Shown one piece after another: positions 10,313 through 15,562 of a DNA stretch of 35,952 nt. The DNA lies in IMG/VR virus record IMGVR_UViG_3300045282_000077, positions 1 to 35,952 of that record; one strand, written 5' to 3'. The translations under genes and the position numbers were made by a program. The notes under the pieces were generated by a model that was given only the letters and a program-made list of their open reading frames with translations, was not told the DNA's origin and ran no database searches. Source of the stretch: a virus. Position 1 is the stretch's first letter; each line of letters begins with the position of its first letter.

Positions 10313-10542
10313 TACAGCAGCCCCGACTGGTGCGCGATCATCAGGATGTCCTCCGGTGTCCAGCCGTCTGCGACTTCCCAGGTGGGGTGCCCCTCGTCAT
10401 CTTCGTCGCCGGTCAGGGTCATCGACGCTCCGCACGCCTTGCACGTCCCGACGAACCCCACCGGCCAGGAGTCCCACGGACGCTCCTCGATGAGGCGCTC
10501 GGAGTCGATAACGTCTTCGTGGTCGCAGTCGTTGTCAGGCAC
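10312..10542 (-). CDS. Zinc-binding acidic protein, 76 aa
   Basis: GTG start with 8-nt overlap. CDHED near the N-terminus and CKACGA at 34-39 form a probable zinc site. The rest is acidic (TGDEDDEGHP, PEDILMIAHQSG). The assignment rests on cysteine spacing only. Confidence 0.65.
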   Translation of the reverse strand: MPDNDCDHEDVIDSERLIEERPWDSWPVGFVGTCKACGASMTLTGDEDDEGHPTWEVADGWTPEDILMIAHQSGLL

Positions 10543-10837
10543 TGAACACCACCCTCTTTCCCTCGACGAGATCGCCGTGGATCTGGCAGTACGCCGACCC
10601 CGCAACTGGCGATCGGTCGCACTCCCCCTGCCACCACGCACAAGGCGGATACAGGATGTTCGACAGCCGTGCCTCGACACGAGAGAGAACCTGGAAGGCC
10701 ACGAGCGCCGCGGCTCGTTCCTCTGCCGGTGCGTTGGTTTCCTCGAGCCGGCGCCACGTCGTAGCGGCCTCTGCGCTCTTGTCTCCGATCGCCCCGAGCG
10801 TGAGGATCGCCTCGCCGGGATTCAGTTCTAGGTTCAC
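10535..10837 (-). CDS. Hypothetical protein with C-x6-C-x9-C-x2-H motif, 100 aa
   Basis: GTG at 10837 in a GTGA overlap. An N-terminal helical region (EAATTWRRLEETNAPAEERA, VLSRVEARLSNI) is followed by a zinc-type cluster with cysteines in CAWWQGEC and YCQIH. The overlap with the TGA at 10834 shows that the frame upstream is, or was, translated. Confidence 0.65.
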   Translation of the reverse strand: MNLELNPGEAILTLGAIGDKSAEAATTWRRLEETNAPAEERAAALVAFQVLSRVEARLSNILYPPCAWWQGECDRSPVAGSAYCQIHGDLVEGKRVVFSA

Positions 10838-10980
10838 TTCGCGGCCTCCACCATGATCCGGCAGATGGCTTGGAGGGGAACGTCCGCCGCCGACGCCGCC
10901 GACCACGCCGCCGCCGCCGCCGACTCTGTTCCTTCGGTCTCGCAGCGAAGCGCCGCAGCGATGAGCGCGGGAGCGGAGGC
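10834..10980 (-). pseudogene. 48-codon frame continuing the 117-aa gene after an in-frame TAG
   Basis: Directly after the TAG at 10981-10983 the same frame stays open for 48 codons (ALIAAALRCETEGTES, then an Ala-rich run, ending CRIMVEAAK) to a TGA that forms a GTGA with the next gene. There is no ATG, GTG or TTG until near its end. It may be the C-terminus of a once longer protein cut by a nonsense mutation, an amber codon read through, or a gene with a rare start. Confidence 0.45.
10884..10923. repeat. GCC/GAC trinucleotide tract
   Basis: Thirteen near-tandem GCC or GAC triplets encode an Ala-rich run on the minus strand. Such tracts slip easily and could explain frame or length changes in this locus. 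Confidence 0.8.
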
Positions 10981-11334
10981 CTAGATCAGTTCAGCGATAC
11001 GCCGCAGCGTTGGCGGAAGGATCTGCCGGATCGTCTGTTCGGCGACTTCCTTGGCCCATGCCTGACGCTTCTCGGGAGTCCATTCCTGGAACGCGAGGAT
11101 GACCGGGCCGACCGTGACCATCGAGGCAGTCCGAACTTCGTCAGAGGACCAGCGTGCGTCGTTCAGGGCGCGCAGGTCGAGGTCGAACCCGCCATCGCCC
11201 CACTCGCGCCCGAGGTACACATTCAGCGCCTCGTTGACGCAAGCGTGGCCGTTCGGGTCGTGCGCCCCCTTGTAGAGCTTGCCGCCGAACCGCTGCTCGA
11301 CGAACGTCTCGAAGTCCACCGTCTCAGTTGTCAT
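10981..11334 (-). CDS. Hypothetical protein, 117 aa, ending in an amber codon
   Basis: The MTTETVDFETF start at 11334 is chosen because GAGG lies 8 nt upstream; an in-frame ATG at 11340 is too near it. Residues 10-60 contain FGGKLYKGAHDPNGHACVN; the second half is helical (WTPEKRQAWAKEVAEQ). It stops at TAG, after which the frame is open again (see 10834-10980). No family recognised. Confidence 0.6.
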   Translation of the reverse strand: MTTETVDFETFVEQRFGGKLYKGAHDPNGHACVNEALNVYLGREWGDGGFDLDLRALNDARWSSDEVRTASMVTVGPVILAFQEWTPEKRQAWAKEVAEQTIRQILPPTLRRIAELI

Positions 11335-11361
11335 TCCCATCCCCTCGGTTCCCCTACATGC

Positions 11362-11493
11362 TCATCCAAACGACTTCACTCCGGGTACGTGGGCCTCGAT
11401 GAACGCCAAGGTGTACGTCAGGCCGACCAGGAAGAAGCACAGCGCGCCCACCGCAAACAGCACGAAGGCCGCGCCACCGTCGCCGGGGGTCAC
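11362..11493 (-). CDS. Single-pass membrane protein, 43 aa
   Basis: GTGA start. One hydrophobic helix (AFVLFAVGALCFFLVGLTYT) with a short polar C-terminus. Not near the lysis genes, so more likely an early membrane factor than a holin. Function unknown. Confidence 0.6.
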   Translation of the reverse strand: MTPGDGGAAFVLFAVGALCFFLVGLTYTLAFIEAHVPGVKSFG

Positions 11494-11660
11494 GCCGCGC
11501 TCCGGTCCGTGAAGTCCTTGGCGACCAGTCGGCGCAGCCACTCGGGCCGGTTGTCGACCTGCTCGACGGGTTCGCGGGGCAGCCACCGCATCCGGTGGGC
11601 CTCGCAGCGAGACTGGTCCGGGAGGGCTGCGCGGCGGCAGTCCGGGAAGCGGCAGGTCAC
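11490..11660 (-). CDS. Zinc-finger-like protein, 56 aa
   Basis: GTGA start. The first 22 residues have C-x4-C-x9-C-x3-H spacing (CRFPDC ... RCEAH), typical of very small zinc-finger proteins in phages of high-GC hosts; a basic tail follows (WLRRLVAKD). Cotranscribed with the HTH gene and overlapping its stop. Confidence 0.65.
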   Translation of the reverse strand: MTCRFPDCRRAALPDQSRCEAHRMRWLPREPVEQVDNRPEWLRRLVAKDFTDRSAA

Positions 11661-11821
11661 GGTACGTCCCTCCGGTGTTCCGCCGCGTAGCGGGTCACCT
11701 CATCGTCAGCGACGAACCAGTTGCGGCCCATCTTGTGGGCGCGCAGCTTGCGGTTCTTGATCTGCTGCCGAAGGGTCTTAGGCGAGAGCCCCAGGCTCTT
11801 GGCTGCTTCGCTGATCGTCAT
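11657..11821 (-). CDS. Excisionase/MerR-like helix-turn-helix protein, 54 aa
   Basis: A complete HTH_17-type domain: ISEAAKSLGLSPKTLRQQI, then KNRKLRAHKMGRNWFVADDE, giving helix-turn-helix plus wing. It is the first gene of the leftward early operon. The promoter at 11828-11856 puts the likely transcription start at or within a base of the ATG, so the message should be leaderless. Small proteins of this class act as excisionases or as regulators of nearby promoters; with no integrase here, binding the adjacent switch region is the better guess. Confidence 0.75.
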   Translation of the reverse strand: MTISEAAKSLGLSPKTLRQQIKNRKLRAHKMGRNWFVADDEVTRYAAEHRRDVP

Positions 11822-11827
11822 GGGCCT

Positions 11828-11856
11828 AACCTACGCTATTGACCTAGGCGTGTCAA
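11828..11856 (-). promoter_or_regulatory. Leftward sigma70-type promoter for the early operon
   Basis: On the minus strand, TTGACA (11856-11851), 17-nt spacer, TAGGTT (11833-11828), six bases, then ATG of the HTH gene. The spacer contains CGCCTAGG. It overlaps the rightward promoter by 18 bp. Confidence 0.65.
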
Positions 11857-11867
11857 GAGGGTACCTT
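11839..11867 (+). promoter_or_regulatory. Rightward promoter, overlapping the leftward one
   Basis: TTGACC (11839-11844), 17-nt spacer, TACCTT (11862-11867); start expected near 11875, then a ribosome site and the 82-aa gene. CCTAGG straddles the -35 end. The overlap makes simultaneous use of both promoters unlikely. Confidence 0.5.
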
Positions 11868-11896
11868 TGCCGCCCCACCGATAGGAGAGCGAGGAC

Positions 11897-12145
11897 ATGG
11901 CAACCGGCATCAACGTATCCAGGTGCATCCACGGACTGACGCTGACGATCTTGGCACCTGATCCCACCATCGTCACCGAGCTGGTCGCGGCGCTTCCGTG
12001 CGGCTGCACCATCAACGGGAGCGGCATCATCCGGGCCGAGCCGGAGCGCGCGCCGGTGCCAACCCCCCGTGCGCCCAAGCCGTCCATGTTCAATCGCGGC
12101 ACGAAGCCCGCCGACTTCACGTCAAAGGGCTCGAGGGCGTCCTAG
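11897..12145 (+). CDS. Only rightward gene: hypothetical protein, 82 aa
   Basis: ATG at 11897 follows TAGGAGAGCGAGGAC, a good ribosome site, and the promoter at 11839-11867. The first half has cysteines in SRCIHGL and PCGCTING with beta-like segments; the second half is Pro/Arg/Lys-rich and probably disordered. It ends at TAG just before the hairpin at 12155-12174. Its place opposite the HTH gene suggests a regulator, but the sequence shows no DNA-binding motif. A minus-strand frame overlaps it but would run through the promoters. Confidence 0.55.
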   Translation: MATGINVSRCIHGLTLTILAPDPTIVTELVAALPCGCTINGSGIIRAEPERAPVPTPRAPKPSMFNRGTKPADFTSKGSRAS

Positions 12146-12418
12146 ACACCAAGAAGCCCCGCCGAAGCGGGGCTACAAGGCTGGAGGCAGGATTCCTGTC
12201 TACCTGCACGAGCCCGAGCGTCCTACAGCAAAGGACGAGCCCGATTCACCGTTGCTGGCTAGGCGATCCATTCAGGCTTGCCAGCCTTCCGGCAACTGCC
12301 CAAGGCCGCTCATCGCGTCGCCTCGCTGGTCGCCGTTTACTTGGACCCGGTGCTACGTTGCCCCCGGATTAGAGGGGTATTCCGTCATCTCCATGTTCTC
12401 GCCCGCTAAGGCTCGAAC
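12140..12418 (-). ncRNA. Candidate phage non-coding RNA, about 275 nt
   Basis: Bounded upstream by a good promoter (12425-12454, start near 12418) and downstream by a UUCG-loop terminator on the same strand. Inside there is no gene of useful size, only peptides of 13-23 codons without ribosome sites. Several stems can form, e.g. TTGCC/GGCAA and GGCTGGC/GCCAGC (about 12260-12310), GTCC/GGAC (about 12220-12240), and the CAGGATTCCTG palindrome at 12188-12198. This region accounts for the roughly 375-base stretch without a gene. No known RNA family recognised. Confidence 0.5.
12146..12174 (-). terminator. Intrinsic terminator of the leftward non-coding transcript
   Basis: On the minus strand AGCCCCGC-TTCG-GCGGGGCT (12174-12155), an 8-bp GC stem with a UUCG tetraloop, then TTCTTGGTGT. 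On the plus strand the stem is followed by ACAAGG, so it mainly serves leftward transcripts, though it also lies just after the rightward gene. Confidence 0.7.
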
Positions 12419-12424
12419 TACGGC

Positions 12425-12454
12425 ATCCTAGCCGCGACGCCTAGGCGATGTCAA
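12425..12454 (-). promoter_or_regulatory. Leftward promoter of the candidate RNA
   Basis: Minus strand: TTGACA (12454-12449), 18-nt spacer, TAGGAT (12430-12425). The spacer holds the perfect palindrome CGCCTAGGCG. The block CCTAGGCG(A)TGTCAAGAGG is shared with 11843-11860 apart from one extra base. Confidence 0.65.
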
Positions 12455-12521
12455 GAGGCTACGTCCCGATGAGGTGCATCCAGAACTCCGGGGAGGTAAG
12501 TCGCCGGTGGTTCGCGCGGTT

Positions 12522-13469
12522 CTAGGCCCCGCCGGATACCTTCGTCTGCCGGATGAAGCCCGGCATGTAGGCACCGTTGCCGCCCGCACCAGCTCCCACC
12601 GTCGCGGTGCCACCGCCCGTCAGCGCCCGGATCGAGTAGGTATGCGCCGCCGCCGATGGGGTGAGCCGCCGCGACATTCGCTGCGCCGGGAAGCCGGTAC
12701 CCGTCGCAGATGGTGACGAGAACTCGATCAACCCGATCGACGACCCCCCGTCGTACAGGACGAACTGGAGCGAGTTCGTGCCGGACGGCTGGGTATAGGT
12801 GCATTGGAAGTCGATCATGATGATCGTCGAACCGTCATAGGTGACGGCGTTGCCCGTGACGACCGTATTGGCCGTGGCCTCCGTCGTGGCCGTGATGCTG
12901 ACTCCGCTCGTGAACTCCACGTAATCGAACTCGTAGCCGGGCGGGTACTTGTAGGCGACTGAAGTCGTGACCCCAGCACCCGTGAGCACCTTGCCTGCGA
13001 GCGGGGCGGCGAGGGCTGCTGGAGCGCCCGCGGTCGTGCCCTGGATGATGTCGCCGACCGCGCTCATCGGGTTCGTCAGCGCCGAACCCGCGAGGTCGAC
13101 CGGATAGATGATCCCGTCAGGCGTCGACCCGGATGAGAGGAACCGGATGAATGTCCCCGCTGCTCGAGACGCGCCTACGTCCGCAGCCTGCTTCGCCACC
13201 GTATGCGTCGCGCCGAAGTCCAGTCGCGTCACGGAGCCCGAGGTGTTGACGAGCGAGGTGTAGCCGAGGGTGCGGATACGCCCGATGCCGTTCGAGGCGA
13301 TCGTCTCCTGTGCCACCCCCGCGGCGAGGAGCGAGGCAGCCGAGGTCGTTGTGGTGAACGAATCGTTTGTCGTGCTGTCGTAGATGACGACATCGCCCAG
13401 CGCGACTGACCCACCCGACTTGTTGGTCATCGGGACATCGACCGCGCGGCCGTAGGTGTTTTGGGCCAT
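12522..13469 (-). CDS. Receptor-binding/tail protein with cement-like N-terminus and C1q-like C-terminus, 315 aa
   Basis: Last gene of the late operon, with GGAG 10 nt before the ATG. Residues 1-70 (SGGSVALGDVVIYDSTTND ... GVAQETIASNGIGRI) look like the small beta-barrel of capsid-cement or fibre-base proteins. Residues 180-315 have a jelly-roll pattern (YDYVEFTS, IIMIDFQCTY, LQFVLYDGGSSIGLI, GAYMPGFIRQ) like C1q/TNF-type receptor-binding heads. With the genes before it, it probably forms part of the tail tip; a head decoration role is possible. Confidence 0.55.
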   Translation of the reverse strand: MAQNTYGRAVDVPMTNKSGGSVALGDVVIYDSTTNDSFTTTTSAASLLAAGVAQETIASNGIGRIRTLGYTSLVNTSGSVTRLDFGATHTVAKQAADVGASRAAGTFIRFLSSGSTPDGIIYPVDLAGSALTNPMSAVGDIIQGTTAGAPAALAAPLAGKVLTGAGVTTSVAYKYPPGYEFDYVEFTSGVSITATTEATANTVVTGNAVTYDGSTIIMIDFQCTYTQPSGTNSLQFVLYDGGSSIGLIEFSSPSATGTGFPAQRMSRRLTPSAAAHTYSIRALTGGGTATVGAGAGGNGAYMPGFIRQTKVSGGA

Positions 13470-13478
13470 CGGTGTCTC

Positions 13479-13775
13479 CTAGAGGGCTACGTAGATGTCG
13501 GCCGTTGTCACGCCCGCGGCAGTGAGGTAGCAGTTTGTGCCGTCAGCGGCTTGACTCTCGTACACGAACGACACGCCGCGCGGGACGATGATGACAACGG
13601 TTGGCGTACCGGCCAAACCATGCGCAATCGAGGTCTGGGTGATCTGCACAGCCTGCGCGGTGAGCTTCGTCAACCCCGCTCCGGCGTGGGTATGGGGCAC
13701 CTGCGCGATGGGCGCGGTGTTCGTCCCGGTCAACACCTGCGCGAGGGAGGCGAGGCGTTCGTTTGCCGTTGGCAT
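13479..13775 (-). CDS. Small tail-fibre-associated protein, 98 aa
   Basis: TGATG overlap (1 base) with the tailspike stop. Contains QVPHTHAGAG, a His-rich turn seen in fibre proteins, and beta-rich segments (TPTVVIIVPRGVSFVYES, GTNCYLTAAGVTTADIYV) as in small fibre or trimerisation domains. Likely a fibre accessory or tip domain; assigned mainly from position. Confidence 0.55.
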   Translation of the reverse strand: MPTANERLASLAQVLTGTNTAPIAQVPHTHAGAGLTKLTAQAVQITQTSIAHGLAGTPTVVIIVPRGVSFVYESQAADGTNCYLTAAGVTTADIYVAL

Positions 13776-15562
13776 CAGGCGACCGCCGCGGTGAGGTCCA
13801 CGGTGATATTGCCAGTTCCCGAAGCGGGCGCGGTGTCGAAGGTCAGCACGGTCAGCATCGTCCCCGAAAGGGTAGCGCCGACCCTGACCCCAGCGACATA
13901 GGCCGCGTAGGAGTAGGCATCGAACGGCGCGGCTGGGAGTTCGAATACCGTGGTCGCGCCGTTCCCGTTAAAGGCGAGGTTGTCGATGTGCTCGTGGTCC
14001 GTCGTCCCGACGCCCGATGGCAGGTCCGCGGCGACCAGTGCTCGGAAGGTTGGCTGCGCGGCGCTCCCAGACGTTGGTCCCGCCCACACGGTGTTCGCCG
14101 TTTCGTTGGCCTTGGTGATGGCGAGGGTCCCGGTCGTGGTGATCGGCGAGCCCGAGATGCTGAACTCCGCTGGCACCGACGCCGCGACCGACGTAACCGT
14201 GCCGGACCCGAGCCCCGTGGTCGGATGCACATGATCGCCACGAGCGAAATACTTGGACGTTCCCACTGACGCCGAGCCGCTCAGCGCGACCGGGGTCACG
14301 TCTGTCCCATCGAGGATGCGCGCCGATGTCGGGAGCGTGACCGTGCCGTCCATCTTGGCGTCGATGAGGACGACGTTCGTGGCGCCCGCCGCGTCAATGG
14401 AGGTGCTGCCACCACCGGGCGTCTTGACGTGGCCGCCGATGATCGTGAGCCGATCCGCCGCGTCCACCCGGATGTGCGTCATGCCCGCATTGCCGGGTTC
14501 GATCCAGATGTCTTCGATCGTCACCGACTGGACGGCACTCGTGTCGCCGATCCAGATGTCGGGCGCCGTTCCGGCAACGACATCCATCGTCAGGTTGGAC
14601 AGGCGGACCGAGTTCGTCTGCTGGCCTGACCCCGGCCCCGTGCCGTTGATGTAGAGGCCGGCGGTGGTGTAGCTCTCGATCGCCACATCTTCGAGCGACA
14701 TGGCGAAGATGCCGCCCGACGCCAGTAACCCATACGGCCCGGTCGAGATCGCTCCGCCTTGCATGTGGAAGTTGTTGATCTTGTCGTCGAGGTAGACGTT
14801 CGCCCGGCCGGCGTTGTGGAAGAAGCACTTCTCCAGGAACGTGACGTAACTGCCGCCGCTCTGGCCGTCGATGAACATGTTGTCGTAGAAGTCGCGAATC
14901 AGGATCCGGCGTGCCTCGACAGCACCGAGGGCGAGGACGCCCTTGCCGGAGGCCGCGGTGCCCGAGTTGACGAGGACCAGATTGGCAAGGCCGAGCCGCT
15001 TTGCCGCCGTCTGCTGGATGAGGGTCGTGTTGTTCGAAAGCTGCCTGAGCCCGGCGAACCCATCGGGCGTGGTGTCCGGGTTCGGGTAGGTGTCAGGACC
15101 GAGGAAGGTGATCGCCTTCGACACTGAGAGTGTCCCGCCGAGGGCGGTCATGGACGGCACCCAAATGGCACCGTACTCGTCCTGGTCGTCGATCGCGTCC
15201 TGCACCGCCGCTGCGTCATCGGTGCTGTTGTCGCAAATCGCGCCGTAGTCTCGGAGGTCGGGGTAGAGCTGCCTGCCAGCGCCCGGAATGAGTGACCCAT
15301 CCAGCAGCGTCTCGTCGACGTCGATCTGCGCGACACCGCCACCCAGATCCGTCGTTGCGAGCCCGTGGACCGGGCGGATTTCCGATGTTGGAGAGATGGC
15401 GTCAGGCGTACCCGAGACGAGCAGATCACCGCTCGACCCACTGCCACCCAGCGACCCGCTCCCACCGATCCCCTCGATGATCGCGGGTCCGTGGATCTTC
15501 CCGCCCGAGTTCCGGTCGGAATGATCGTGCAGCGGGATGCGGTGAAACCGCTCGAGCGTCAT
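13775..15562 (-). CDS. Tailspike/tail fibre with pectate-lyase-like beta-helix, 595 aa
   Basis: ATGA start (MTLERFHRIPLHDHSD). Residues 100-130 (LYPDLRDYGAICDNSTDDAA) are the opening of a pectate-lyase-3 type right-handed beta-helix, which continues to about 400 with repeats of the form NVYLDDKINNFHMQGG and LTIIGGHVKTPG. GDHVHPTTG and SGTVTSVAASVP ... RALVAADLPSG (about 430-525) match the common phage fibre repeat domain; the C-terminus is a beta-rich knob. Likely binds and possibly degrades host surface polysaccharide. Catalytic residues cannot be identified with confidence. Confidence 0.75.
   Translation of the reverse strand: MTLERFHRIPLHDHSDRNSGGKIHGPAIIEGIGGSGSLGGSGSSGDLLVSGTPDAISPTSEIRPVHGLATTDLGGGVAQIDVDETLLDGSLIPGAGRQLYPDLRDYGAICDNSTDDAAAVQDAIDDQDEYGAIWVPSMTALGGTLSVSKAITFLGPDTYPNPDTTPDGFAGLRQLSNNTTLIQQTAAKRLGLANLVLVNSGTAASGKGVLALGAVEARRILIRDFYDNMFIDGQSGGSYVTFLEKCFFHNAGRANVYLDDKINNFHMQGGAISTGPYGLLASGGIFAMSLEDVAIESYTTAGLYINGTGPGSGQQTNSVRLSNLTMDVVAGTAPDIWIGDTSAVQSVTIEDIWIEPGNAGMTHIRVDAADRLTIIGGHVKTPGGGSTSIDAAGATNVVLIDAKMDGTVTLPTSARILDGTDVTPVALSGSASVGTSKYFARGDHVHPTTGLGSGTVTSVAASVPAEFSISGSPITTTGTLAITKANETANTVWAGPTSGSAAQPTFRALVAADLPSGVGTTDHEHIDNLAFNGNGATTVFELPAAPFDAYSYAAYVAGVRVGATLSGTMLTVLTFDTAPASGTGNITVDLTAAVA

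Follow-up and report, generated by a model that had tools for sequence, protein, structure and literature searches.

The manA RNA, found mainly in marine cyanophages, has reportedly been an orphan since 2010. The family (RF01745) was described from cyanophages and marine metagenomes and termed a riboswitch candidate (Weinberg et al. 2010, PMC2864571), a label given because of its position in cyanophages, and Rfam annotates it as Cis-reg. The adjacency of manA RNAs to tRNAs, as noted by Rfam, and a weak score linking manA to the tRNA cloverleaf have been published (PMC3692125), and a manA RNA is reported in print for the Bifidobacterium megaplasmid pMP7017 (PMC10832533). A functional study of manA was not found in the literature that we searched, which covered few subscription papers. 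Highly expressed ncRNAs encoded by actinophages are described for mycobacteriophage cluster A and Rhodococcus phage WC1 (PMC10986025).

Here we analyzed a viral stretch of 35,952 nucleotides (IMG/VR record IMGVR_UViG_3300045282_000077), called the window in what follows. A preliminary description of its sequence had proposed a phage-encoded non-coding RNA with its own promoter and terminator between the late and the early operon.

Results

Match to the manA family

The preliminary description had recognized no known RNA family and had suggested a search of Rfam, which was silent at the curated gathering cut-off. When cmscan was run in E-value mode, however, the minus strand matched the manA RNA from 12409 to 12177 over model positions 1-192 (40.9 bits, E 5.1e-9). 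This score lies below the gathering cut-off for manA (55.2 bits), which is a curation threshold and not a structural feature, and which had concealed a full-length match to a known family. Full-length cyanophage matches reach 169-196 bits and one divergent contig 149.7 bits, and 36 of the 37 collected manA records tested exceeded the cut-off. Matches to istR, isrB and RsmY were discarded, being weak or confined to the terminator hairpin.

An 18-base pattern of the 3' hairpin served to gather manA loci in viral contigs (119 different loci once five more marine ones had been added), and an independent covariance model (R1) was built from 15 marine viral manA sequences with the window left out. 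The only match of R1 in the window was at 12183-12392 on the minus strand (33.7 bits, E 6.9e-8), aligned with a 55-nt insertion at an extra arm of the window RNA; with filters off, the placement was partial (27.7 bits) and ended at the same 3' module. R1 also matched the pMP7017 manA (E 9.7e-5).

Compensatory change was examined against the Rfam consensus, which represents a mainly marine family. For 41 consensus pairs the window has a letter at either position; 38 of these are standard, 18 of the 38 with both partners changed, and 3 are broken, so that the covariation the preliminary description had proposed to look for is present, and 40 of the 49 aligned conserved consensus letters are identical. 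In an alignment of 27 sequences on the marine-derived structure, to which the alignment was fitted, 98.8% of the pairs were standard and 159 cells held double changes, compared with 37 in shuffles. The several possible stems noted earlier are not evidence on their own, because the folding energy shows no excess stability (z -1.64 for the transcript and 0.0 for the manA part); thermodynamic folding was dropped as a test of the RNA, since energy alone would miss manA. What supports structure is the comparative evidence.

The elements of the RNA are listed in Table 1. P1 reads UGGAG/CUCCA in the window, compared with GGGAG/CUCCC in the consensus and AGGAG/CUCCU in two marine sequences, three versions of one pair, and in all five pairs of the inner helix (CACCG/CGGUG) both bases differ from the consensus. 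In P1 and the two 3' stems all pairs are standard, and each of these elements has both-side changes. The conserved unpaired letters UGACNGAAUA, CUGUAG and GGUA..ACA..AAU are kept. The RNA would fold as a multi-branch structure closed by P1 and displaying the invariant unpaired UGACNGAAUA, CUGUAG and GGUA-NACA-GGAAU. The phage-borne window RNA shares with the cyanophage manA RNAs the full-length match, P1, the inner helix, the CUGUAG-loop stem, the GGUA..AAUCC hairpin and the invariant loop letters, whereas its extra arm of ~46 nt and its GC-rich helices set it apart from them. We conclude that the minus-strand stretch from 12418 to ~12150 is probably a divergent member of the known but orphan manA family.

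Table 1. Features of the RNA unit and its surroundings, in the order of minus-strand transcription
Feature	Position	Strand	Basis or remark
Last late-operon gene	12522..13469	-	stop ~112 nt upstream of manA, same strand
-35 hexamer TTGACA of RNA promoter	12449..12454	-	promoter scan
Palindrome CGCCTAGGCG in RNA-promoter spacer	12438..12447	-	partly common (CGCCTAGG) to early-operon promoter
-10 hexamer TAGGAT of RNA promoter	12425..12430	-	promoter scan
manA RNA (RF01745), divergent, full-length match to 192-position model	12177..12409	-	cmscan and marine-only model
5' hairpin of manA	12396..12409	-	poorly kept: 4/6 pairs standard, 2 broken
P1 closing helix, 5' strand UGGAG	12389..12393	-	pairs with 12182-12186; first pair G-C to U-A, compensatory
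Conserved unpaired motif UGACGGAAUA	12378..12387	-	model alignment
Hairpin CCCCUCUAAUCCGGGGG	12361..12377	-	model alignment
Inner helix, 5' strand CACCG	12348..12352	-	pairs with CGGUG 12247-12251
Extra arm in variable domain	12290..12335	-	absent from marine manA; own stem when folded
Stem with conserved CUGUAG in apical loop	12209..12243	-	model alignment, pair comparison
3' hairpin GCAGGUAGACAGGAAUCCUGC	12187..12207	-	most conserved module
P1 closing helix, 3' strand CUCCA	12182..12186	-	pair comparison
Intrinsic terminator GCCCCGCTTCGGCGGGGC + TTCTTGG, UUCG loop, U-rich tail	12149..12173	-	terminator scan; not overlapping manA domain
Convergent ORF, 82 aa	11897..12145	+	without recognisable relatives
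Early-operon promoter TTGACA-17-TAGGTT, core CCTCTTGACA..CGCCTAGG	11828..11856	-	pattern scan
First early gene, helix-turn-helix excisionase-like, 54 aa	11657..11821	-	PHROG excisionase E 1e-7; Pfam HTH_17 E 1e-10

Promoter, terminator and reading frames

The sigma-70-type promoter of the preliminary description (TTGACA-18-TAGGAT, 12454-12425 on the minus strand) is the sole promoter-like match in 10500-14500 (shuffle mean 0.5). The pattern TTGAC-N(16-20)-TANNNT occurs only 3 times on both strands of the whole 36 kb: at this site, at 11856-11828 on the minus strand, and on the plus strand at 11839, overlapping the second. The likeness to the early-operon promoter was borne out, as the two minus-strand promoters have the common core CCTCTTGACA[T]CGCCTAGG, with CGCCTAGG shifted by one base between them, and CCTAGG has only 3 occurrences in the 36 kb.

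The UUCG-loop terminator was also found on the promoter's strand, at 12173-12149. The scan returned 4 terminator-like sites where 1.5 were expected, so the hairpin by itself is modest evidence. From the promoter spacing, transcription would start at ~12418, about 9 nt ahead of the manA domain; past that domain, 3-4 nt precede the terminator stem. Both signals had been called without knowledge of the RNA family, and both coincide with the boundaries of the RNA. They enclose ~270 nt without a usable gene, as proposed earlier: the minus strand between them has no ORF of at least 24 codons, the longest having 23, and because promoter, manA and terminator fill the whole unit, no room is left for a coding sequence. 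Homology to manA, compensatory changes and matching boundaries support the earlier proposal of a phage-encoded ncRNA forming its own unit.

The unit stands after the late operon and converges on a rightward gene, as the preliminary description had placed it. The 82-aa ORF of that gene had no relatives by protein search and nothing in PHROGs or Pfam. A plus-strand promoter (TTGACC-17-TACCTT, 11839-11867), back to back with the early promoter, could drive it, and a near-palindrome within the overlap of these two promoters, TTGACACGCCTAGGTCAA, may be an operator. Transcription from the early promoter is predicted to start at the ATG (11821) of the excisionase-like gene, and the first early mRNA would then have no leader.

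Layout of manA loci and the readings it bears on

Nine annotated cyanophages were confirmed with the Rfam model, and the genes neighbouring manA differ among them. The preceding gene is gp23 in P-HM1, S-SSM5 and P-RSM4, pstS in P-SSM3 and P-SSM4, regA in P-SSM2 and ferredoxin in P-SSM7, and genes near nrdB precede it in P-RSM6 and P-TIM68. At the marine loci, simple gene calling placed the end of the preceding gene a median of 23 nt upstream and the start of the next a median of 72 nt downstream. At least 6 T within the 8 bases right after manA were present at 67.5% of 114 marine viral loci, compared with 7% of random sites and 10% of sites after ORF stops, a count inflated by kinship among the loci, which are not 114 independent events. 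This excess suggests that manA RNAs tend to carry a terminator-like tail at their 3' end.

One reading of the window manA is a module at the 3' end of the late operon, in which manA and terminator would protect or end the structural-gene mRNA and the promoter would be minor or irrelevant. This would agree with the short distance to the end of the late operon, which has the same strand as manA, and with the cyanophage manA RNAs, which often stand close behind gp23, pstS, regA or ferredoxin genes and end in a T-run. A good promoter whose core is common to the early promoter nevertheless lies between late gene and manA, and the pMP7017 manA comes after a tRNA, not an mRNA; we consider this reading unlikely.

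Similarly unlikely is a cis-acting riboswitch, in which a ligand on manA would decide between a stop at 12155 and read-through into the early operon, antisense to the 82-aa gene. Such a switch would agree with the Cis-reg and riboswitch-candidate labels, with a terminator directly behind manA and with the many cyanophage manA RNAs that stand before genes. The next gene has the same strand as manA at 110 of 113 marine loci, but co-directional phage genomes would give this count anyway, so strand alone cannot separate the readings. On contig L129 (1-500), a marine-type manA 3' half lies at the contig edge and a tRNA-Trp at 429-500; an ORF begins ~23 nt after this manA, behind a likely ribosome-binding site. 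Because of the same-strand genes and this ORF, other members of the family may act in cis. The annotated gene right after manA in P-TIM68 has the opposite orientation, an ill fit for a 5'-UTR role there. In the window, however, manA does not stand ahead of a same-strand gene: the next one lies >300 nt past the terminator, beyond the oppositely directed gene, and has its own promoter. As the next downstream gene is convergent, the window manA is not a 5' UTR. The terminator stem (12173-12156) and manA (12409-12177) have no common base and hence no overlapping expression platform, no mutually exclusive helix was seen, and with a terminator that does not overlap manA no competing-hairpin switch is visible. 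Compared with cyanophage manA, the window RNA differs in having its own promoter, a separate GC hairpin terminator and no gene downstream.

Only a few bases separate the converging ends of the two units, which could point to antisense or interference against the 82-aa gene with manA as an incidental passenger, but the predicted RNA would extend no further than the stop codon of that gene, so that overlap is minimal, and compensatory change keeps a full manA structure that antisense action does not need, which makes this reading very improbable. A decayed coding sequence with chance likeness to manA, for which one might cite the three short minus-strand ORFs (13, 13 and 23 codons; TGAATG joins two of them), is hardly credible against an E-value of 5e-9, the independent model match and 18 compensatory pairs, next to a small ORF that is itself blank in PHROGs and Pfam.

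Relatives, host and actinobacterial manA RNAs

The TerL and portal proteins of the window have their closest matches, at 25-30% identity, mainly in phages infecting Microbacterium, Arthrobacter and other actinobacteria, and the contig has a GC content of 67%; an actinobacterial host is therefore likely, whereas the hosts of cyanophage manA are cyanobacteria. A search with 901 bases found no DNA similarity to phages. Flanking proteins led to one relative, IMGVR_UViG_3300045253_000045, in whose 39.5 kb manA gave no match and the late genes are directly followed by the excisionase gene. Since this sole relative lacks it, manA appears to be a variable cassette in the lineage; no near relative of the window with manA was found. 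The place of manA and the rightward ORF in the window, between tail gene and early operon, is occupied in the relative (L002, 4014-5096) by an ORF of 360 aa; it contains a GDSI-type motif and resembles an SGNH hydrolase by eye only.

No manA match was obtained in D29, Giles, Myrna, BaileyBlu or ReqiDocB7, or in a small sample of 21 genomes from the phylum of a Fictibacillus match, and pattern scans for GC-rich viral manA returned marine members or false matches only, the tightest pattern returning none. Two short-core BLAST matches were rejected: the one in a phage (H31) falls in an apparently coding frame of a record that the manA model does not match, and the Paracoccus plasmid has no manA match either. 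The actinophage ncRNAs resemble the window RNA, whose transcript is predicted, as phage-encoded non-coding transcripts of actinobacterial phages, a likeness of kind; D29 and Giles gave no manA match over their whole genomes.

The pMP7017 manA (122,656-122,830; L139 3157-3331) scores 41.5 bits, also below the Rfam cut-off. It lies 17 nt after a tRNA-Phe and ~135 nt before a tRNA-Arg, inside an array of tRNAs and a tmRNA that has no annotated CDS, and RNAs of this type occur in five other Bifidobacterium plasmid records (95-99% identity). A hairpin, CCTCCATCTGTC/GACGGATGGGGAGG, follows just after this manA (L139 3323-3375), with TTTTT 7 nt later. Like the window RNA, the pMP7017 manA is similarly divergent, belongs to an actinobacterial mobile element and has no ORF behind it. 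Unlike the window RNA, it stands within a tRNA/tmRNA array (no tRNA or tmRNA was found in the window), lacks the extra arm and, in a simple promoter scan, apparently has no promoter of its own next to it.

Discussion

The reading that we favor, with a probability of about two in three, is a free-standing, trans-acting manA RNA expressed with the early genes. The stretch from 12418 to ~12150 on the minus strand would be a minimal unit of promoter, RNA domain and terminator, its RNA being made early in infection, in the lysogen or in both from a promoter that shares the early-operon core. We infer from the sequence that this RNA is transcribed and that, instead of switching a gene from its 5' UTR, it acts in trans; its co-regulation with the early operon, which the preliminary description had thought probable, is suggested solely by the similarity of the two promoters. 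Read-through from the late operon would also end in manA, as in the cyanophages in which another gene closely precedes it, and a 3'-end role would be compatible with a free RNA, the late operon being a second source. Our best guess for the partner of the RNA is the translation or tRNA machinery, a speculation prompted by the manA RNAs that adjoin tRNA genes and by the weak cloverleaf likeness of the model.

Both actinobacterial manA RNAs examined, the host of the window being inferred, fall under the Rfam cut-off (40.9 and 41.5 bits). Because the cut-off hides actinobacterial manA, current records probably understate the breadth of the family. What is new is not the family but this divergent member, its occurrence in an unusual type of phage and its unusual layout as a unit on its own. 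Such a copy suggests that RNAs of this family can function as free RNAs and not solely as switches ahead of genes. More tentatively, and with less confidence than we place in the reading of the window itself, manA RNAs might be autonomous structured RNAs of phages and mobile elements, with their own 3' end and found with or close to tRNA genes, that act in trans on host translation or RNA processing and are not riboswitches, the window holding one of the simplest units. The alternative to a switch can be tested directly on this 36-kb high-GC phage contig, where manA has its own promoter and terminator and there is no gene that it could control.
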